Positions 51,978 to 62,693 of a stretch of 64,000 nucleotides of DNA are shown here, piece after piece. Below the pieces are notes generated by a model. That model saw only the letters and a program-made list of their open reading frames with translations. It made no database searches and was not told where the DNA came from. How positions within the stretch are numbered: the stretch's first letter is position 1; every line of letters begins with the position of its first letter. The stretch comes from Tautonia plasticadhaerens (GTDB lineage: Bacteria > Planctomycetota > Planctomycetia > Isosphaerales > Isosphaeraceae), in the NCBI RefSeq assembly GCF_007752535.1, contig NZ_CP036426.1, forward strand, positions 558,001 through 622,000, written 5' to 3'. Made by a program: the position numbers and the translations under genes.

Positions 51978-52459
51978 CGTCGGGGCTCTCCTCGGTGAGC
52001 AAGTCGGGCGAGGCCGCCCTCGGGTCCGTCTCGGGAGCCCCATTGTGGGGGGCCCGACCGCCTCGGGGCAAGCCGCCCGGTCCCCGACGCCGCGCCGGGG
52101 AGCCCGGCCCGAAAAAACGGTGACCGGGAACCGTGAATTCCTGAAGATGTGGTTGACTCCACGGATCCGAGGCATCATCCTGGTATCGCTCGATTAGGCT
52201 GCCCAACTTAGAGAAGGATCCCCGGCCGCCCGTCCTGCGGGCGTTCGGATTCGCGATCACCGTCCAACGGCATCCCCGGGGGCCTCGCCTGCGCGGCCCT
52301 TACGCTCCGGGTGCGCCGGATCGGCGGCGGATCGAGGCCCGACGAGGGGCCGTCGAGGCGGGTGGTCGTGTCCTCATCCCCGTCCGAGTTGTCGTCCGAG
52401 TGCCGATCCTCGCCCCGTGGCGTCGAGCGTCCTTCGGGCCCCTGCCGGAGCGAATTCCG
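51978..52459. other. Divergent spacer, no gene seen
   Basis: 482 bases between the dipeptidase gene and the M36 protease gene. The centre (52110-52210) is AT-richer and includes TTGACT at 52153, but no -10 box lies at the right distance. The rest is GC-rich without protein-like frames. Confidence 0.4.
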
Positions 52460-55400
52460 ATGAGCAGCGATCGCCGAAGGCGGCACCGGGCCGCGCTGCG
52501 CGGCCGACTTGATCTCGATGTGCGGAGGAATCGCGTCCGGCCCTCGATCGAGGGGCTCGAGGATCGCGTGGTGCTCTCCCCCTCCCCCCTCCCCGGCGAA
52601 GTCGCGTTGAGCGGCCCCCGGCAGGGAGCGCCCGTGCAGATCGCGAGGGACTATCTGGCCGAGCATGGCGACTCCTTCGGCCTCGGGGCGGGCGACCTCG
52701 ACCGCCTAGTCGTCACCAACAACCACACGAGCACCCCCAGCGGCGTCACCTACCTGTACCTGAGGCAGGGCTTCAACGGCCTGCCGGTGGTCGACTCGGA
52801 CATCAACGTCGCCGTCGACCGCCAGGGGCGGATCCTGACCATCGGCGGCCGGTTCAGCCCGCTCATCGGCAGCCTCCCCGAGGAGGGTGTCCCCGCCCCC
52901 GGGCTGTCCCCCGCGGAGGCGCTGGGCCGGGCGGTCGACGCCCTCGGCCTGGGACTCGCCGGCGACATCACCGTCGTCCGCGACGCCGAGGGGCTCGATC
53001 TCCGGGGGACATTGCTGGCCCCCGGGGCCGCCCGGGGCGAGGTCCCGGCCCGGCTGCACTACGTCGCCGGGCCCGACGGCTCCCCCCGCCTCGCCTGGAA
53101 CTTCTCCGTCGACCTGCCCGACGGCAGCCACTGGTACGACGCCAGCGTCGACGCCCAGACCGGCGCGCTGCTCCGGGCCTCCGACTGGGTCGACAACCAC
53201 ACCTACAACGTCTTCCCCCCGCCCGCCCGCTCGCCGCAGGACGGGCCCCGCACCCTCGTCGTCGACCAGCACCTGGACGCCCCCGACGCCTCGCCCGACG
53301 GCTGGCACACCACCGACGGCCGGACCGACGGACCCGAGTTCACCGACACCCGAGGCAACAACGTCTTCGCCCAGGAAGACGCCGACAACAACAACACCGG
53401 CGGCACGCGCCCCGACGGCGGCGCCGGCCTCGTCTTCGACTTCCCCTTCGACGACACCCAGGCCCCGGCCAACTCCCAGAACGCCTCGATCGTCCAGACC
53501 TTCTTCGTCTCCAACGTCTTCCACGACGTGCTCCACCGGTACGGCTTCGACGAGGCATCCGGCAACTTCCAGCAGAACAACTTCGGCCGGGGAGGACAGG
53601 GCGGCGACGCCGTGCAGGCCGACGTCCAGGACGGATCGGGGACCGACAACGCCAATTTCGCGACCCCCCCGGACGGCACCGCCGGCCGCATGCAGATGTA
53701 CATCTTCACGGGCACCAACCCCAATCGGGACGCCGGCTTCGCCAACGAGATCGTCGTCCACGAGCTGGGCCACGGCATCTCCAACCGGCTGACCGGCGGC
53801 GCGGCCAACTCCGGCGCGCTCGACCGCTTCCAGTCCCGCAGCATGGGCGAGGGCTGGAGCGACTTCTACGCCCTGATGTTCACCCAGGACGCGAACGACG
53901 GGAAGCTCGACGCCTACCCGCAGGGCGTCTACGTCGGCTATCCCAACGGCGTCCGCCGCCAGCCCTACAGCTTCGACCAGAATATTTACAATTACTCCTA
54001 TTCCGACCTCGGGCTCGGCGCGGGCGAGTTCTTCCCGCACCCCAACGGCGAGATCTGGGCCGCCGCACTCTGGGACATGAACTGGCTGCTCGTCGACCGC
54101 CAGGGCTTCTCCCCCGACCTCTACGCCCCCGTCGACGTGGCCTCCCCCGAGGCCAGCTCCGGGAATCAGGTCGCCATGCTCCTGGTGACCGAGGCCCTCA
54201 AGCTCCAGCCGGCCAACCCCACCTACCTCCAGGGCCGAGACGCCATCCTCCGGGCCGACCAGGCCCTCTTCGGCGGCAGGTATGCCACCGAGATCTGGAC
54301 CGCCTTCGCTCGCCGGGGCATGGGCCTCAGCGCCGTCGACACCGACCTGGGCACCCGATACGACGACGCCAGGGACTTCGACGGCATCCGCGAGGCCTTC
54401 GACATCCCCCTCTTCGTCGACGTCGCCTTCAACTCCGCCGGGCTGGCCGGACTCTACGAGAATTCCCCGCTCAACGAGGTCGTGGTCGGCACCCTGACCG
54501 ACCGTTTCGGCATCTCCAACCCCGCCGATTACGGCGCCACCATCGACTGGGGCGACGGCTCCCCCGTGCGGGCGGCGACCCTCCGGCCCAACGGCGCCGG
54601 CGGGCTGGACATCATCGGCTCCCACACCTACCTCGAAGGCGGCCCTTACGAGGTCACGATCACGGCCGACCGCGACGGCTCCCTCCCCGAGGTGGCCACC
54701 TTCGACCTCCCCGTGCAGAGCTGGCCCCTGTTCGCCCAGGCCGGCAGCCCGATCGTCTCGCGGGAGGGGATTCCCCTGGAGGACGTCCCGGTCGGCTCGT
54801 TCACCGACTTCGACCCCCAGGCCAACCCGGGCTCCCACTACACCGTCACCATCGACTGGGGCGACGGCGTCCAGTCCCCCGGCGAGGTCGTCCGCCAGGC
54901 CGACGGCGGCTTCGACGTCTTCGGCAGCCACACCTACCGGGAGGGGGGCGACCGCACCTACCGCCTGATCGTCTCCGAGGCCGGCGGGCAGTCCAGCTTC
55001 GCCCTGGGGCAGGCCCGGATCGAGACCTTCCCCGTCCTCGCCACCGGCGGCTTCTCCTACACCATCCAGGAGGGGACCCCCTTCAGGGGGCCCGTCGCCC
55101 GGTTCGTCGACCTGAGCCCCCAGGTGAAGGAAGCCCGCTCCTACTCGGCGGTCATCGACTGGGGTGACGGGACCACCGGTCCTGGTACCGTGGTCTCCGA
55201 CGGCGGCGGCGCGTTCACCGTCCTGGGCGAGCACACCTTCAGCCTGCCCGGCGGCCGGTCCGAGCTGCCCATCCGGGTCACCGTCTTCGAGGGGGGGGGC
55301 AACTCCGACACCGCCACGAGCACCGCCGTCGTCTCCGACGCCCCCATCAACGCCGAGGGCCGCCGACTGACCCTGGCCGAGGGCCTCTTCTCCGGCGTCG

Positions 55401-56998
55401 TCGCCCGCTTCGACGACTTCAACCAGCTCGGCACGGCCGGCGAGTTCACCGCCACGATCGACTGGGGGGACGGCACCACCACCCCGGGCGTGATCGAGCC
55501 CGACCCCGAGGTCGGCTTCCTCGTCCTCGGGACCCGGGACGACCTGCGGGCCGGCACCTTCACCGCCCGGATCCGGGTGGTGAGCCGGGGTGGCAGCATC
55601 GCCGAGGCCACCTCCACCCTCGTCGTCTCCGACGCCGGGTTCCTCCCCCGAGCCCAGCCGATCGCCGCCCTCGCCGGCCCCTTCTCCGGCGTCGTCGCCA
55701 CCTTCGTCGACCTCAACCCCGGCGGCTCCCCCGGGGACTTCTCCGCCTCCATCTCCTGGGGGGACGGCGCCTCCTCCGCCGGCCGGATGGTCCAGCTCGA
55801 GGACGGCTCGTTCCAGGTCCTGGGGGACCACTCCTTCCCCGCCGGCACCTACGAGGTGGTCGTCACCGTGACCAGCCTGGCCACCGGCGTCCGGGCCGAC
55901 GCCGCCGCGACGGCGAGGATCGGCTCCAGTCCGCTCACCGGCCTCGCCGTGCCGATCCGCGGCCTGGAGCTGGAGGACGGGCTCCACTACCTCGGCGCCG
56001 TCTACACCGAGGACCCCTTCGCCGGGGCGGGCGACTTCACCGTCGTCATCGATTGGGGGGACGGCACCACCTCCGCCGGCGAGGTGGTCGTCCACCCCCT
56101 GGGCCGGGAGTCCGGCTTCCTGGTCCGGGGCCGGCACGCCTACACTCGCTCGGGAGGGTTCCCCGTCTCGGTCGCAATCACGGGCCCCGGCGGCGTGCAG
56201 ACCTCCCTCTCGACCTCCGCCGCGATGGACGTGGTCCGCATGCCCGTCATTGCGACCCTCGCGCCCGGCGGCCTGGTGAGCGGCTTCGCCGTGCCCGGAT
56301 CGACGGTCATCCTGCTCGCCCAGCGGGACGGCGGCGAGCCGTTCCTGATCGCCGAGGTGCCCACCAATCCCGCCGACGGCGGCTGGACCTACGAGGTGGA
56401 GGGCCTCGGCGACGGCTCCTACGCCCTCTCCGCCGCCGCCAAGAACCGCTCCGGCGTCCAGAACAGCCCGATCGTCCCGATCGGGGGCGGCCCCCTCGTG
56501 GTCGACCGCTCCGGGCCGACCGTCCGGGACGTCTTCCTCGACCCGAGGGCCGGTCAGGTGCTCGTCACCCTGGCCGACCCCCTCAGCGGGCTGGCCCCGG
56601 CCTCGCTGCTCAGCCCGGACAACTACGCCGTCACCGACGCCATGGGCCGCGCCCTGCGGATCGTCGGCGTCGAGCTCTCCCCGCCGGGGGCCGACGGCTC
56701 CCAGGTCGTCATCCTCCGGCTCGGCAGCCGGGGCCCCCTGTCCCGGGGCGGCTACACCGTGACGATCAACGGGGCCGCCATCACCGACCGGGCCGGGAAC
56801 ACGCTGACCGAGTCGTTCTTCACCCCCTTCCCGCAGTTCGTCGGGGCGAGCTCGACCACCTTCGTCGCCGACATCGGCACCGACGGCACCCGGTCCACCC
56901 CGCCGATCCAGGTCATCCCCGGCGACCAGGCCCGAGGGGTCGGTGCCTTCCGACGCTTCATCGCCGCGGGCTTCCGCCGCCGCCCGATCCAGCTCTGA
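52460..56998 (+). CDS. Giant secreted M36 (fungalysin-type) metalloprotease with PKD-like repeats
   Basis: 1512 residues. The N-terminus carries the planctomycete surface-protein motif (RPSIEGLEDRVVLS, of the LEPR/LEDR type) instead of a classical signal peptide. An FTP-type propeptide region (about 60-250) precedes the M36 catalytic domain, with zinc motif H434-E-L-G-H438 and downstream GEGWSDFYALM supplying the third ligand. From about residue 690 there are six PKD-like repeats, each with WGDG (DWGDGSPV, DWGDGVQS, DWGDGTTG, DWGDGTTT, SWGDGASS, DWGDGTTS). A Big-type Ig-like module (FAVPGSTVILLAQRDGGEPF) and a C-terminal beta domain follow. It is a cell-surface or released protease whose repeats may bind polymer. 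The ATG at 52460 has GGAG about 9 bases upstream. Confidence 0.9.
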   Translation: MSSDRRRRHRAALRGRLDLDVRRNRVRPSIEGLEDRVVLSPSPLPGEVALSGPRQGAPVQIARDYLAEHGDSFGLGAGDLDRLVVTNNHTSTPSGVTYLYLRQGFNGLPVVDSDINVAVDRQGRILTIGGRFSPLIGSLPEEGVPAPGLSPAEALGRAVDALGLGLAGDITVVRDAEGLDLRGTLLAPGAARGEVPARLHYVAGPDGSPRLAWNFSVDLPDGSHWYDASVDAQTGALLRASDWVDNHTYNVFPPPARSPQDGPRTLVVDQHLDAPDASPDGWHTTDGRTDGPEFTDTRGNNVFAQEDADNNNTGGTRPDGGAGLVFDFPFDDTQAPANSQNASIVQTFFVSNVFHDVLHRYGFDEASGNFQQNNFGRGGQGGDAVQADVQDGSGTDNANFATPPDGTAGRMQMYIFTGTNPNRDAGFANEIVVHELGHGISNRLTGGAANSGALDRFQSRSMGEGWSDFYALMFTQDANDGKLDAYPQGVYVGYPNGVRRQPYSFDQNIYNYSYSDLGLGAGEFFPHPNGEIWAAALWDMNWLLVDRQGFSPDLYAPVDVASPEASSGNQVAMLLVTEALKLQPANPTYLQGRDAILRADQALFGGRYATEIWTAFARRGMGLSAVDTDLGTRYDDARDFDGIREAFDIPLFVDVAFNSAGLAGLYENSPLNEVVVGTLTDRFGISNPADYGATIDWGDGSPVRAATLRPNGAGGLDIIGSHTYLEGGPYEVTITADRDGSLPEVATFDLPVQSWPLFAQAGSPIVSREGIPLEDVPVGSFTDFDPQANPGSHYTVTIDWGDGVQSPGEVVRQADGGFDVFGSHTYREGGDRTYRLIVSEAGGQSSFALGQARIETFPVLATGGFSYTIQEGTPFRGPVARFVDLSPQVKEARSYSAVIDWGDGTTGPGTVVSDGGGAFTVLGEHTFSLPGGRSELPIRVTVFEGGGNSDTATSTAVVSDAPINAEGRRLTLAEGLFSGVVARFDDFNQLGTAGEFTATIDWGDGTTTPGVIEPDPEVGFLVLGTRDDLRAGTFTARIRVVSRGGSIAEATSTLVVSDAGFLPRAQPIAALAGPFSGVVATFVDLNPGGSPGDFSASISWGDGASSAGRMVQLEDGSFQVLGDHSFPAGTYEVVVTVTSLATGVRADAAATARIGSSPLTGLAVPIRGLELEDGLHYLGAVYTEDPFAGAGDFTVVIDWGDGTTSAGEVVVHPLGRESGFLVRGRHAYTRSGGFPVSVAITGPGGVQTSLSTSAAMDVVRMPVIATLAPGGLVSGFAVPGSTVILLAQRDGGEPFLIAEVPTNPADGGWTYEVEGLGDGSYALSAAAKNRSGVQNSPIVPIGGGPLVVDRSGPTVRDVFLDPRAGQVLVTLADPLSGLAPASLLSPDNYAVTDAMGRALRIVGVELSPPGADGSQVVILRLGSRGPLSRGGYTVTINGAAITDRAGNTLTESFFTPFPQFVGASSTTFVADIGTDGTRSTPPIQVIPGDQARGVGAFRRFIAAGFRRRPIQL

Positions 56999-57047: not shown

Positions 57048-58523
57048 TCAATCGACGGGGCGGCTGGACCCCTCACGAGGATCCGGGGCGGACGTCCCTT
57101 CCTCGGATCCCTCCGGGGGGATGGCCCGGCCGTGGGGATCGGCGTCGGGGCGGTCGAGCGCGGCGGCGAGTTCGGCGCGGAGGGCGGGCCCGATGAAATG
57201 CTCGATCCGCTCGGCGGGGTCGTGGAGGTGGTCGGCGGGCAGGTCGAAGTTCTCGTTGAGGTACGACTCCCAGAGCCGATGCGAGCGGACCAGCTCCCTC
57301 GCCTCGGCCCGGCCGGGCCCGGTGAGCCCGAGGGTGCCGGCGTCCGAGGTCCGGAGCTGCCCCCGGGCCCGCAATTGCCGGATCGCGAGCGCCCCGACCA
57401 GCCCGACGGCGGCCGTCGAGGGCCGGCGGCCGTCGAGGCCGGCGGGGTCGGCGGGGACCGGGAGGTCGGGATTCGCCTCCTCGGCGCGATAGAGCCGGGC
57501 CAGCACGTCCTCCCGGGCGATCCGCAGCGAGAGGCCCGCGCGATGGGCTGCCCGGCCGAGGAGCCCGTGACGGGGGGCGAAGGAGACGGCGAGGGCGAAC
57601 TGGGCCCCGGCGACCACCGCCATCATCCCGGCGACGCTCGAATTCAGGGCGACCGCGCCCCGGTAGCCGATCGCCGCCGAGAGCACGGCCACGCCCGAGG
57701 CGACCAGCATCATCCGGGGCAGGCGGTCGGTCAGCAGGTGGGCCGTCGTGGCCGGGACGATCAGCATGGCGACGACCAGGATCGAGCCGACCGCCTCGAA
57801 GGCCGCCACCGTCACCCCGGCGACCATCGCCATCAAGGCATAATGGACCGCGGTGGCGCTGATGCCGACGGCCGTCGCCAGGGCGGGGTCGAAGGAGACG
57901 AGCTTCAGCTCCTTCCAGAGCAGGGCGACGAACCCGACCGTCAGCGCGGTCGCCAGGCCGAGCGTGCCGAGCGACCGGGGGACCTCGACGCCGAGGATCG
58001 GCCGGGAGTCGATGGCGGCCAGCTCGATCAGGCCGTAGAGTACGCAGCCGGGGTCGAGGTCCACGTCCCTGGCGGCGTTGGTGATGATGAGCACGCCGAC
58101 CGCGAACAGCGAGGTGAAGACCACGCCCATGCTCGCGTCCTCCGGCACCCGGCCGAGGCTGCTGAGGAGCTGGGTGAGCAGCGCCGTGAGCATCCCGACG
58201 GCCATCGCCCCGAGCACGATCGCCGGGCCGATCAACGAACCGCTGAGGAGGAATCCGACGGCGATGCCCGGCAGGACGGCGTGGCTGATCGCGTCCCCCA
58301 GCAGGCTCAACTTGCGGAGGACGAGGTAGCAGCCGAGCACCGCGCAGGGCAGGCTCGCCAGGATGCCGAGGAGGATCGTCCAGCGGCCGATCTCGTCGCT
58401 GGCGACGAATGCCCAGGCCGTCGGCACCGCGACGGCAACGAGGCCAACGACCCAGGGGAGGATCGCCCTCGTCGCGGATTGTGCGGGAGCCGGTCGGGTC
58501 GAAACGGCGTCGATGGTGGTCAT
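57048..58523 (-). CDS. Metal ABC permease fused to an intact DtxR/MntR-like domain
   Basis: 491 residues. About 1-300 is an ABC-3 (ZnuB/MntB) permease with 8-9 helices and the motif SLLGDAISHAVLPGIAVGFL. About 310-491 is a DtxR-like module: a winged-helix part (ALAIRQLRARGQLRTSDAG, LTGPGRAEARELV) followed by a metal-binding/dimerisation part. Six residues match DtxR ligand spacing exactly: His415-x3-Glu419, His434, Glu438, Glu441, His442 (HRLWE ... HDPAERIEH). Glu at the third-last position resembles Mn-sensing MntR rather than Cys-bearing DtxR. It imports Zn2+ or Mn2+; the module may sense cytoplasmic metal. The start overlaps the upstream permease stop by 4 bases. Confidence 0.88.
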   Translation of the reverse strand: MTTIDAVSTRPAPAQSATRAILPWVVGLVAVAVPTAWAFVASDEIGRWTILLGILASLPCAVLGCYLVLRKLSLLGDAISHAVLPGIAVGFLLSGSLIGPAIVLGAMAVGMLTALLTQLLSSLGRVPEDASMGVVFTSLFAVGVLIITNAARDVDLDPGCVLYGLIELAAIDSRPILGVEVPRSLGTLGLATALTVGFVALLWKELKLVSFDPALATAVGISATAVHYALMAMVAGVTVAAFEAVGSILVVAMLIVPATTAHLLTDRLPRMMLVASGVAVLSAAIGYRGAVALNSSVAGMMAVVAGAQFALAVSFAPRHGLLGRAAHRAGLSLRIAREDVLARLYRAEEANPDLPVPADPAGLDGRRPSTAAVGLVGALAIRQLRARGQLRTSDAGTLGLTGPGRAEARELVRSHRLWESYLNENFDLPADHLHDPAERIEHFIGPALRAELAAALDRPDADPHGRAIPPEGSEEGTSAPDPREGSSRPVD

Positions 58524-59800
58524 CGCGGCCCCTCCTCCGGGCCCGGGTCGGGCAATTGGCCGGCGTCCCGGAGCGCCCGCCCCAGCTCGGCGACCACGTC
58601 GGGCGGCAACACGTCGTCGACCGACTCCCGGGACAGGTCGGCCATTGCCGAGGCCTGCTCGGGGTGGTCCTGGAGGAACTGCTCCCAGAGCCGATACCCC
58701 CGGACGACCGACCGGGCGCGTCGGAGTCCGGCCTCGGTCAGGAGCAACGTCTCCCCGGGGCCGGGGGTTAACCGGATCTCGCCCCGGCCGAGCAACCGGG
58801 CGACGGCCCCGTCGAACCGGCCCGGCCCGGAGCCCCTCCCATCCGGTTCGTCGAAGCGATCGAACGGGAGGACCGTCGGCAACGAGGCTTCCGAGAATTC
58901 GTAGAGCAACCGCAGCAGCTTCCGCTCCTGCAGCTCCCTCCGGAACCGCCAGGCCGCCAGGGCGCGGCCGAGGACCCCCCTCCTGGGGGCCAGCAGCACC
59001 GAGAGCAGGAACACCGCCGAGCCGACCAGGACGATGATCGGCCCGGCGGGCATCCCGGCGTATCGGGCGCTGATCGCCGTGCCGACCAGGCCGGTGACCA
59101 GCCCGAAGGCCGAGGCCAGCGCCAGCATCGGCCCCAGGCGATCCGTCCAGAACCGGGCCGCCGCCCCGGGCAGGATCAGCAGCGCCGCCATCAGGACCAC
59201 GCCCACCATCGGCAGGCCGAAGACGACGGCCAGCGCGATCAGGCCCATGAGCACGAGGTCGAGCCAGACGACCGGCCACCCCTGGACCCGGGCGAATCCG
59301 GGGTCGAAGACCGTCAATTTGAATTCCTTGTAGGCCAGGACGATGGCGGCGAGGCTGACCAGCGAGACGCCGCCGATGAGCAGGACGTCCTGCCGGATGA
59401 TCCCGGCCGTCTTGCCGAGGATGTAGGAGTCGAGCCCCGCCTTGTTCCCCACGCCCGCCGTGTTCTGGACCATCCGGCTCAGGACGATCCCGAGGCCGAA
59501 GAAGACGCTCAGGACGATGCCGATGGCGGCGTCCTCCTTCACCCGGGTCCCCCGCCTCAGGCCGGAGATGACCGCCACCCCCAGGACCCCGGACGCCAGG
59601 GCCCCCGCCAGCATCGCCGGCAGGCTCCGCTCGCCGACGAGCAGGAAGGCCAGGCAGAGGCCGGGCAGGGCGGCATGCGCCAGGGCGTCCCCGGTCAGGG
59701 ACCGCCCCCGGAGCACCGCGAAGCTGCCGACGAGCCCGGCGTTGGCGCCGAGCAGGCCGGTGCCCAGCAGGACGACGATCGTGTTGTAGGTGAGGCCCAT
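58520..59800 (-). CDS. Metal ABC permease fused to a degenerate DtxR-like domain
   Basis: 426 residues. The ABC-3 permease part (about 1-280) has GRSLTGDALAHAALPGLCLA and about eight helices. The C-terminal part is DtxR-like: RKLLRLLYEFSEA, LTEAGLRRARSVVRGYRLWE and onward. The ligand positions equivalent to the intact partner are changed: Tyr369 for His, Glu373 kept, Asp388 for His, Glu392 kept, Asp395 for Glu, Asp396 for His. It therefore probably lost or altered metal binding. It forms a heterodimeric channel with the overlapping permease gene. The gene is separated from the ATPase and binding-protein genes by a methyltransferase gene on the other strand. Confidence 0.87.
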   Translation of the reverse strand: MGLTYNTIVVLLGTGLLGANAGLVGSFAVLRGRSLTGDALAHAALPGLCLAFLLVGERSLPAMLAGALASGVLGVAVISGLRRGTRVKEDAAIGIVLSVFFGLGIVLSRMVQNTAGVGNKAGLDSYILGKTAGIIRQDVLLIGGVSLVSLAAIVLAYKEFKLTVFDPGFARVQGWPVVWLDLVLMGLIALAVVFGLPMVGVVLMAALLILPGAAARFWTDRLGPMLALASAFGLVTGLVGTAISARYAGMPAGPIIVLVGSAVFLLSVLLAPRRGVLGRALAAWRFRRELQERKLLRLLYEFSEASLPTVLPFDRFDEPDGRGSGPGRFDGAVARLLGRGEIRLTPGPGETLLLTEAGLRRARSVVRGYRLWEQFLQDHPEQASAMADLSRESVDDVLPPDVVAELGRALRDAGQLPDPGPEEGPR

Positions 59801-59931: not shown

Positions 59932-60732
59932 ATGCTGCCGAGGATGACGTCGTACGCCGGGAACTTCGAGGACGTCCTGCTCCGCCGCGCCTTCCACGAC
60001 CAGGCCGACGGCTTCTACGTCGACGTCGGCGCCTATGACCCGGTCGACGGCTCGGTCACCAAGCACTTCTACGACCTCGGCTGGCGGGGGATCAACGTCG
60101 AGCCCGACCCGGCCCCCTTCGCCCGGCTGCTCGCCGACCGGCCCGGGGACATCAACCTGAACCTCGCGCTGTCGGACCGGGAGGGGACGCTCCGCCTCTT
60201 CTCGGCCGAGGGGGCGGCGCATCCGTCGGTGGATCCGAGGATGATCACCGGCTGGTTCGGCGCCCGGCCGGAGGACGTCCGCCCGGTGGATCTGCCGGCG
60301 ATCACCCTGGCCGCCCTGTGCGACCACCACGTCCCGGCCGGCCGGGCGATCGACTTCCTGAAGGTCGACGTCGAGGCCCACGAGTACGAGGTCCTCGTCG
60401 GCAACGACTGGACCCGATGGCGCCCGAGGGTGCTGGTCGTCGAGTCCTGGGAACACGAGCGCTGGGAGCCGATCCTCCGGGACGCCTCGTACCACTTCAC
60501 CCTCTTCGACGGCATCAACCGCGTCTACGTCCGGGGCGAGGACGCCCACCTGATCCCCCGCTTGAGCGTCCCGGTGAATCAGACCGACAACTTCGGGCTG
60601 CACCCGTATGCCCCGTTCGAGGGGATCGGGCCGCAGGCGCTGCGGCTGGCGCGGTGGATTCACCGGAGGGCCGAGCGGAACCCCCGGCTCGCCTCGATTG
60701 CCCGGGCCTGCATCGGCCGGCTGGCGGGCTGA
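59932..60732 (+). CDS. FkbM-family methyltransferase
   Basis: 266 residues. SAM-binding motif I reads FYVDVGAYDPVDGSVTKHFY; motif DFLKVDVEAHEYEVL is the FkbM post-II signature. The C-terminal DAHLIPRLSVPVNQTDNFGL is less typical. FkbM enzymes O-methylate sugars or natural-product hydroxyls. It lies on the plus strand between the two halves of a minus-strand ABC operon, with only 14 bases to the convergent ATPase gene, so it looks inserted there. ATG 59932 follows AGGGAGGG; an in-frame ATG lies 12 bases on. Confidence 0.87.
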   Translation: MLPRMTSYAGNFEDVLLRRAFHDQADGFYVDVGAYDPVDGSVTKHFYDLGWRGINVEPDPAPFARLLADRPGDINLNLALSDREGTLRLFSAEGAAHPSVDPRMITGWFGARPEDVRPVDLPAITLAALCDHHVPAGRAIDFLKVDVEAHEYEVLVGNDWTRWRPRVLVVESWEHERWEPILRDASYHFTLFDGINRVYVRGEDAHLIPRLSVPVNQTDNFGLHPYAPFEGIGPQALRLARWIHRRAERNPRLASIARACIGRLAG

Positions 60733-60746
60733 GTCGTCGGGAGTGG

Positions 60747-61586
60747 TCACTGGCTCCGCTCCAGCGCCTTCACCGCCTCCCCCGCCGCCTCCAGGATGGC
60801 CAGGCGTCCGCCGTAGGCCTTGCGGAGGTTCTCCGGGGTGAAGGTGGAGGCGGTCGGCCCCTGGGCGATGAGCCTCATGTTCAGCAGGATGACGTGGTCG
60901 AAGTACTCGGGCACGGTCCGAAGGTCGTGGTGGACGACGAAGACGGTCTTGCCGTCGGAGCGCAGGTCCCGGAGCAGCCGGAAGATGGCCGACTCGGTGG
61001 CGGCGTCGACGCCGGCCATCGGCTCGTCCATGAAGTAGACCTCGGCCCGCTGGGCGAGGGCCCGCGCGAGGAACGTCCGCTGCTGCTGCCCGCCGGAGAG
61101 CTGGCCGATCTGCCGGTCAGCCAGGTGGGCCATGCCCACCCGCTCCAGGCACTCCAGGGACCAGGCCCGCTCGGCCCTCCCCGGGCGTCGGAACCAGCCG
61201 AGCCGGCCATAGGAGCCCATCAGCACCACGTCGAGCACGGTAACGGGGAAGTCCCAGTCGACGCTCTCGCGCTGCGGGACGTAGCCGATCAGCCGTCGCT
61301 GCGATTTCGAGGGCTCGCCGAGGATCCGGACCGAACCGCTGGCCATCGGCACCAGGCCGAGGATCGCCTTGATCAGGGTGCTCTTGCCCGCGCCGTTGGG
61401 CCCCACGATCCCGGCCAGGCAGGGCCGGTCGATCGTCAGATCCACGTCCCAGAGCACCGGCTTGCGGTGGTAGGCGACGGTCACGTCGTGGACGTCGAGC
61501 ACGGGGGGGACGCCGGGGTCGGGGGCCGGTCGGCCGTCGAGGTCGACGGGGGCCGCGGGGTGCTCCAGGGTCGGGCTGGTCCTCAT
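60747..61586 (-). CDS. Metal ABC transporter ATPase
   Basis: 279 residues. Walker [17 protein letters not shown], signature [15 protein letters not shown], Walker [15 protein letters not shown], and switch His in FVVHHDL. The Q-loop region [19 protein letters not shown], with a Glu-Ser-Val-Asp-Trp-Asp-Phe-Pro run, is characteristic of Mn/Zn/Fe (MntA/SitB/ZnuC-type) ATPases. It powers the importer formed with the permeases at 57048-59800. The ATG overlaps the binding-protein stop by 4 bases (ATGA). Confidence 0.93.
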
Positions 61587-62599
61587 CGCAGCGCCTCGGC
61601 GATCGTGTCCACGTTGTGCCGGACCATGCCCGGGTAGGTCCCCTCGGGGGTGCCGGCCTCCCCCATCGCGTCGGAGTACAGCTGGCCGCCGATCCGGACC
61701 CGGTGGCCCCGGGCCTCGCAGCCCTCGACCAGCGCCCGGACGTTCCGGTCGCTGACGCTCGACTCGACGAAGACGGCCGGAATGCGCCGTGCCACGAGCA
61801 GGTCGACCAGGTCGTTGATCTCCCGGACCCCGGCCTCGCTCTCGGTGCTGATCCCCTGGATGCCCCGGACTTCCACGCCATAGGCGCGGCCGAAGTAGCC
61901 GAAGGCGTCGTGGGCGGTGACCAGCAGCCTGCGACCCTCGGGGATCTCGGCGATCCGGGAGCGGACCTCCGCGTCCAGCCCGGCCAGCTCGGCACGATAG
62001 GCCTCGGCGTTCCTGGCATAATCGGCGGCCGAGGCGGGGTCGAAGTCGGTCAGGGCGTCCCGGACCACCTCGATCACCCCGGACCAGAGTGCCACGTCGA
62101 ACCAGGCGTGGGGGTCGACCTGGCCGCCGACGAGGTCGATCAGCCGATCGGGCGGGATCCCCTCGGCCACGGGGACGGCCGGCTTGCTCCGGCCGAGGCG
62201 TTCGAGCACGTCCCCCATCTTCCCTTCGAGGTGCAGGCCGGAATAGAAGATTGCGTCGGCCCCGGAGAGCGCGGTGATGTCTCCGGGAGAGGGCTTGTAG
62301 AGGTGGGGATCCACCCCCGCCCCCATCAAGCTCGACACCGAGACCCGATCCCCCCCCACCCGCTCGACCACCTCGGCGACCATGCCGGTGGTGCAGACGA
62401 CCCCGATGGGCCCATCCCCTCCGTAGGTCGAGGGCGATCCCCCGGATTTCGGGCCCTCCCCGCAGCCGGACGCCGTCGCGACCAGCGCGACCAGCACGAC
62501 CCCGAACCGCCGGCCCCGATTGATCCCCCCCGGCCCGCACCGGCCCGATCCTCGTGCCACACTCAGAATGGCGAACGCCCCGCGCTGTTCGTGCCCCAC
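61583..62599 (-). CDS. Zn/Mn ABC transporter substrate-binding lipoprotein (TroA/ZnuA family)
   Basis: 338 residues from GTG 62599, or 325 from GTG 62560; neither has a clear ribosome-binding site. A lipobox ([10 protein letters not shown]) gives a lipoprotein. Metal-ligand segments of cluster A-I proteins are present: [38 protein letters not shown], and the C-terminal YSDAMGEAG. It lacks the long His-rich loop of many ZnuA proteins, so manganese, iron or zinc are all possible. It is the first gene of a minus-strand unit with the ATPase (ATGA overlap). Confidence 0.9.
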
Positions 62600-62677
62600 G
62601 GCGATTGGCCCCTTTCATGCCCGGACGATCCGTACGATTGCATCTTACGGCGCGACGTTGGAAGACGCAATCCCGTT

Positions 62678-62693
62678 TTTTGGGCAACCAAAA
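62678..62693. promoter_or_regulatory. TTTTGG-GCAA-CCAAAA inverted repeat in the divergent spacer
   Basis: A perfect 6-bp stem with a GNRA-type loop, inside an AT-rich stretch (62636-62700) between the metal-binding-protein gene and the secreted-protein gene. A metalloregulator operator or promoter element is possible. Confidence 0.35.

Follow-up and report, generated by a model that had tools for sequence, protein, structure and literature searches.

Why would both membrane subunits of a metal importer end in a module related to metal-dependent DtxR/MntR regulators? The question is raised by a TroABCD-type operon on the minus strand of the window, by which we mean the whole 64,000-nucleotide stretch of Tautonia plasticadhaerens DNA analysed here (assembly GCF_007752535.1, contig NZ_CP036426.1, positions 558,001 to 622,000). 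Profile searches and a structure search identified in this operon a substrate-binding lipoprotein, an ATPase and two ABC-3 permeases, D and C, so that all the parts of a TroABCD/ABC-3 importer are present together. D and C were the only ABC-3 matches in a profile search of the 9.4-Mb, high-GC genome. Both carry a DtxR/MntR-fold module behind the ABC-3 domain, and this observation was confirmed together with an asymmetry in the metal ligands, which are conserved in the module of C and not in that of D. The permease genes, modules and ligands lie at the following window positions.

57048..58523, minus strand: second permease gene, C, 491 aa; ABC-3 domain at residues 44-313 (PF00950, E 5.5e-47), then a C-terminal DtxR/MntR module
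58520..59800, minus strand: first permease gene, D, 426 aa; ABC-3 domain at residues 9-270 (PF00950, E 1.5e-64), then a DtxR-like module
57105..57563, minus strand: DtxR/MntR-fold module of C, residues about 321-473, from AlphaFold2 and a fold search
57198..57281, minus strand: ligands H415, E419, H434, E438, E441 and H442 of C, read from the translation and conserved across the C type
58565..58975, minus strand: DtxR-like module of D, residues about 276-412, with ligand places K294, Y369, E373, D388, E392, D395 and D396

Fold and ligands of the fused modules

The D gene lies upstream and overlaps the C gene by 4 bases (ATGA). PF02742 matched residues 402-469 of C with 69.3 bits (E 2.8e-19), and at this score the match is not due to chance. 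For D the score was 20.6 bits, below the 27-bit cut-off. An ABC-3 permease followed by a PF02742-type domain within one gene, which is the arrangement of YtgCR-type fusions, is therefore found in both, with a domain score over the cut-off for C and under it for D. The AlphaFold2 models had predicted local distance difference test scores of 86.6 (C) and 87.8 (D). The C module was modelled mostly at high confidence, with a dip around residues 350-370, and model residues 335-473, winged helix included, superposed on MntR (5zr6) with a Z-score of 16.6 and a root-mean-square deviation (rmsd) of 1.9 over 130 residues. The best DtxR match of the D module was 1p92 (Z 9.4, rmsd 4.2 over 126 residues). 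It was tied with a PadR-type winged helix (Z 9.5), so the assignment of D rests more on homology to other D proteins; PF02742 was matched at E 0.01 or better in 43/47 D-type proteins. A family missing from the fold-search list is not thereby excluded.

The original prediction, made from the DNA letters and their translated reading frames, had placed a winged helix plus a metal-binding module at the end of both permeases, and both the PF02742 match in C and the AlphaFold2 fold matches of the two proteins bear this out. The six ligands that it named in C and the Y-E-D-E-D-D that it read at the same places in D agree exactly with the translation. Helix 1 of C bears one more ligand-place residue, D339, with K294 at the matching place of D. 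We take D339 to correspond to Met10 of DtxR and Asp8 of MntR, and D339 together with E438 presumably makes the site of C resemble that of MntR. Of the domains that mark DtxR/MntR regulators, PF02742 was thus found (over the cut-off only in C) and PF01325 was not: C and D gave no PF01325 match up to E 0.1, nor in the whole-genome search up to E 1. A profile search for FeoA in the two proteins gave no match either.

Ligand sets among related importers

To place the asymmetry, relatives were collected as 60 loci from 57 same-phylum genomes and 80 named loci. Permeases and modules were found by hidden Markov model (HMM), and seven ligand columns were read. With the window counted and three copies dropped, 138 loci had permeases; 102 of them had C and D genes, as 89 pairs with a module or its remnant and 13 pairs without. 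L079, L123 and L135, with modules identical to those of L168, L067 and L072, were excluded from the counts. A frameshift or misplaced start led to the exclusion of the C row of L086 from alignment A1 and the D row of L059 from alignment A2, and L125 and L127 were excluded from the stand-alone set. Start codons of the relatives were set by rule and some are wrong, as for L071 C, which is cut short in A1. C and D were sorted by score; the long-tailed L150 and L167 scored as D yet sit in the C clade of the tree. A ligand set was called complete when it held H79, E83, H or D98, E105 and H106 (DtxR numbering), with any residue at 102.

The C type was nearly uniform. Among 96 C rows with a metal domain, the seven columns held Asp (89), His (92), Glu (92), His (91), a variable residue, Glu (96) and His (96); at the variable fifth column, the 102 place, Glu was found in 57 rows, His in 18 and Asp in 12. 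Most D modules bear a conserved ligand set of their own, H-HE-D-D-EH, and not a decayed one. The commonest residues in the 90 D rows with a metal domain were His (47), His (77), Glu (80), Asp (69), Asp (58), Glu (84) and His (77), and the complete set with D98 was present in 56 rows, that with H98 in 19, while 15 were broken. On these counts the notion that the first-gene module is generally degenerate was rejected. The contrast between an intact and a degenerate module, described in the original prediction, is real in the window and is not general. In nine pairs a module with the D98 set was the only one, and eight of these pairs come from records that bear the name of a Verrucomicrobiota group.

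It had been proposed, too, that one subunit of the heterodimer senses cytoplasmic metal, and that an alignment of such fusions would tell whether one partner always keeps the ligands. The first idea fits this lineage and is no rule, as both partners were complete in 50/89 pairs, C only in 13, D only in 21 and neither in 5. The alignment showed that either partner may lose its site, and the asymmetry of the window is thus one outcome among several. A rule that one partner always keeps the ligands was likewise rejected: one or both sets are complete in 84/89 pairs, but the five with none are at the level of independent loss. Four of these five fall in one clade. The 19 broken rows of both types require only 6 changes on the permease tree, so the broken sites cluster in few lineages, that of the window included.

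The nearest named relative of the C permease is a Tautonia sociabilis protein (79% identical). Between the two species the metal domain of C is identical at 50/56 positions and its permease part at 237/314; for D the figures are 39/56 and 241/271. The D site reads K-Y-E-D-E-D-D in the window vs K-Y-E-D-E-A-E in T. sociabilis and, judged from these sequences, appears to be drifting.

Other arrangements were seen among the relatives. Six loci (L068, L074, L075, L076, L077 and L168) are reversed, with a short C tail of 80-92 residues and a complete N-HE-H-E-EH set in D. A single ABC-3 permease with a long tail of about 213-232 residues was found in L081-L085, L087-L089, L126, L129, L134, L136 and others; the long tails consist of the DtxR module and a further stretch, and FeoA was matched in 2/57 members of A1. 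In L064, L065, L066 and L090 the ligands are gone in both partners and a stand-alone DtxR-family gene lies directly beside the operon. The permeases of Bacillota relatives have no module at all.

DNA-reading core, membrane joint and stand-alone regulator

The DNA-recognition signature is lost in the fused modules. PF01325 was matched by 37/37 stand-alone relatives vs 0/57 C-type and 0/47 D-type fused proteins. The recognition-helix motif of the stand-alone proteins was present in 34/37 of them, in 2/78 C, 0/90 D and 0/18 single long-tailed proteins; the HMM behind this motif was trained on the stand-alone set itself, and PF01325 serves as the independent check. Conservation was calculated on representatives of less than 70% identity that keep H79 and E83 (29 stand-alone, 65 C, 69 D and 18 long-tailed), leaving out seven short tails and two odd rows; alignments A4 and A5 use 39/47 and 41/45 of the listed rows. 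Information per column in the DNA-reading core was 0.77 bits in C, 1.01 in D and 1.51 in long-tailed proteins vs 2.09 in stand-alone ones. For the metal domain the values were 2.28, 2.60 and 2.75 vs 2.67 bits.

The same was seen between near relatives. When the window species was compared with T. sociabilis, the fused cores of C and D were identical at 19/44 and 14/43 positions, and the stand-alone core at 37/40; the two stand-alone proteins also share a run of 45 identical residues. L037 and L041 followed this trend (fused C 20/38, fused D 21/38, stand-alone 32/37). In 14/14 hand-picked pairs of near relatives the fused core was less identical than the metal domain, with a mean gap of 30 points.

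In contrast to this variable core, the joint between module and channel is of constant length:

57507..57566, minus strand: linker of C, G320 to D339, which joins the last membrane helix to the ligand place in helix 1, with the Gly at -19 in the fused set

A Gly stands exactly 19 residues ahead of the helix-1 ligand column in 193/193 fused proteins (C 78, D 90, long-tailed 18, short 7), whereas the distance from this column to His79 ranges from 55 to 109 residues. In the C model a single long helix (model residues 320-349) starts five residues after the last membrane helix. A joint of constant length combined with a variable DNA-reading part suggests that the module is mechanically coupled with the channel.

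A search for a stand-alone DtxR/MntR gene, which the original prediction had recommended, found one further PF02742 gene in the genome. It encodes 238 residues with PF01325 and FeoA domains and the full ligand set, and lies about 6.5 Mb away from the operon. Stand-alone PF01325 genes were found in 71/77 genomes, namely 52/57 comparison genomes (44/45 good ones), 18/19 further ones and the window's own; these matches, part of which were also checked for PF02742, were taken as stand-alone since by eye none falls in a fused permease gene. In 36 loci the stand-alone gene lies within the fetched stretch. The presence of a further DtxR-family gene whose DNA-binding domain is intact, together with the unconserved DNA-recognition part of the fused modules, makes the membrane-tethered transcriptional regulator that was also suggested for the window less likely.

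The remaining genes of the operon and its upstream region are:

60747..61586, minus strand: ATP-binding subunit of the Mn/Fe type (NF011630, E 1.7e-72, under its equivalog cut-off)
61583..62599, minus strand: substrate-binding lipoprotein of the TroA/PsaA class (PF01297, E 2.3e-81; nearest solved structure TroA, E 1.2e-86)
62642..62670, minus strand: promoter-like TTGCGT-17-TAAGAT beside the palindrome, read by eye; TTGCGT-17-TACAGT in T. sociabilis
62678..62693, no strand assigned: palindrome TTTTGG-N4-CCAAAA, a possible operator upstream of the substrate-binding gene, in the same place in T. sociabilis

The transported metal is probably Mn/Fe. The exact palindrome occurs at 3 sites in the 9.4 Mb vs 0 for the reversed control; the other two (C1:3728480-3728495 and 5889951-5889966) lie, by eye, near prepilin-like and methyltransferase-like genes, and no metal regulon emerged among the three sites. 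As a shared operator the palindrome was sought in 140 related loci and found in one, that of T. sociabilis, with 0 control sites.

An FkbM-type methyltransferase gene (59932-60732, plus strand; PF05050, E 2.4e-21) separates the ATPase gene from the permease genes and is read in the opposite direction. At the T. sociabilis locus (L094) the ATPase gene adjoins the permease genes, and an FkbM-type methyltransferase was not matched there. A 1532-residue open frame at 52400-56998 (plus strand) adjoins the operon and encodes an M36 metallopeptidase domain (PF02128, E 2.2e-131) and an immunoglobulin-like domain.

Candidate functions and known systems

Our best reading, to which we give an even chance, is that the fused modules act as a cytoplasmic metal-sensing brake on transport. 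The two transmembrane subunits, each ending in a DtxR/MntR-derived module, would hold these modules side by side on the cytoplasmic face, and the rigid helix that itself bears a metal ligand would join each module to the last membrane helix. Cytoplasmic metal would fill the site and make the module close or reorient as in DtxR/MntR. The loaded module would then hold the importer in a non-transporting state, that is, a post-translational brake acting by trans-inhibition. In this lineage the second-gene module (C), which alone keeps the ligands, would be the sensor and the first-gene module (D) its structural partner, while the stand-alone DtxR-family regulator, encoded elsewhere in the genome, would presumably take care of transcription. 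The predicted fold, the ligands, the fixed linker, the lost DNA-recognition signature and the stand-alone gene all support such a brake.

Several observations weigh against it. The core was less identical than the metal domain in 7/8 stand-alone pairs too (mean gap 10 points); what sets the fusions apart is thus the size of the gap and not a softer core as such. Between L160 and L142 (Verrucomicrobiota) conservation of the fused D core (37/45) is at least as high as that of the stand-alone core (31/38). With mean net charges of +2.7 and +3.5 the fused cores are also more basic than stand-alone cores (+0.9), which could mean contact with nucleic acid, and the winged-helix fold is retained in the C model. 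Double loss of the ligands is not avoided, with 5/89 pairs vs 5.3 expected if the losses were independent (26 x 18 / 89). The PF01325 signature may, we assume, be missing from Chlamydia YtgR as well. In the available text of PMC6504234, the Chlamydia fused module, of 139 residues, represses genes. Finally, the sensor domain of MetNI and ModABC sits on the ATPase in the available part of PMC10710835, and those of the window on the membrane subunits.

The strongest competitor, though we regard it as unlikely, is that the module is cut from the permease as in YtgR and represses the operon when metal-loaded. Such behaviour is published for Chlamydia YtgCR, in which the domain order is identical according to the available text (PMC5599777, PMC6504234, PMC7755916), and the winged helix of C, the basic fused cores and the palindrome upstream of the operon would all suit it. 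It is less easily reconciled with the missing PF01325 match, the nearly vanished recognition motif and a core that, in the compared pairs, changes faster than the rest of the module. Nor does a part that is to be cut off need a fixed linker, and the D permease model (P0002) is without helix 2. Furthermore, a stand-alone PF01325 gene is present in 71/77 genomes, whereas the available part of PMC6504234 describes YtgR as the only identified iron-dependent regulator in Chlamydia. The evidence, drawn from sequences and models, appears to fit the metal-sensing brake better than a released repressor.

Less probable again is a role as metal acceptor, in which the modules receive metal as it leaves the pore and hand it over or buffer it, with no control of transport. 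The conserved metal site, the lost DNA-reading signature and the attachment directly after the last membrane helix speak for an acceptor; against it, the DtxR fold and a rigid linker were retained, and only a single complete site is present in 34/89 pairs. Some sugar transporters couple transcription to their own state through their regulators, and by analogy the fused dimerisation domain might pair at the membrane with the stand-alone DtxR-family protein and link transcription to the state of the importer. This we consider improbable: metal and dimerisation domains conserved without a DNA-reading signature agree with it, as do the stand-alone genes in 71/77 genomes (inside the fetched stretch in 36 loci), but the stand-alone gene of this genome is about 6.5 Mb from the operon. 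That the modules merely stabilise the heterodimer, with their ligands as relics, is very improbable even though both sets are broken in L064, L065, L066 and L090, none is complete in L093 and Bacillota relatives do without a module, as the metal domain of the window C is more conserved against T. sociabilis than its permease (50/56 vs 237/314) and each ligand, that at the 102 place excepted, is found in 89 to 96 of the 96 C rows.

A tentative and rather doubtful extension of the brake is that widespread ATP-binding cassette (ABC) metal importers of Planctomycetota, Verrucomicrobiota, Bacteroidota and others made the repressor a built-in flow regulator on their membrane subunits. The sets D-HE-H-E-EH and H-HE-D-D-EH might then make up a pair of unlike sensors, tuned to two set-points or two metals, and lineages like this one would have been reduced to one active site. 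If the modules brake transport, metal would feed back at the level of activity on the membrane subunits of an ABC importer, through a domain of well-known metal chemistry. One would then also have to ask how permease-DtxR fusions of other phyla operate, as the released repressor of Chlamydia might not be the rule.

Permease-DtxR fusions have been reported from 11 phyla (Thompson 2012, as cited in the available part of PMC5599777), and the fusion itself is thus already known. The literature searched, with most subscription journals outside it, yielded no account of either tandem fusions or a fused DtxR module that controls transport. To that extent three features are new, namely the second set of conserved ligands, the loss of the DNA-reading signature and the joint of fixed length, though the original fusion report may touch on some of them.

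The closest precedent is YtgCR of Chlamydia trachomatis. By its published description, in the part available, there too an ABC-3 permease continues into a DtxR-like module at its C-terminus, the metal ligands are conserved, and the operon further encodes a binding protein, an ATPase and a second permease (PMC5599777). According to the same partial accounts the repressor is part of YtgC, from which it is released to bind DNA, whereas both permeases of the window are fused; YtgR is the only identified iron-dependent regulator (PMC6504234), whereas the window modules are without a DNA-recognition signature and the genome has a stand-alone gene. With MntR, DtxR, IdeR and TroR the window module shares fold and metal ligands, but it is fused to a membrane protein and has no PF01325 or FeoA match. 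The importer resembles Treponema Tro and Streptococcus Psa in that its substrate-binding protein is nearest TroA and its permeases are nearest the PsaBC structures 7kyo/7kyp. In contrast, the Psa permease chains stop at 282-290 residues and have no module, and troABCDR of T. denticola, as far as its description was available, has a separate regulator gene.

The control of importers after membrane insertion is less understood than the control of their genes, and fused cytoplasmic domains brake transport in the ABC importers MetNI and ModABC, as stated in the available part of PMC10710835. No DtxR fold is reported there for their ATPase-borne sensor. In the window the fused sensor domain, predicted to be cytoplasmic, is on a membrane subunit and not on the ATPase. 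The likeness lies in the proposed action, since in MetNI and ModABC the fused sensor domains pair and lock the importer (PMC10710835), as the modules of the window may do.

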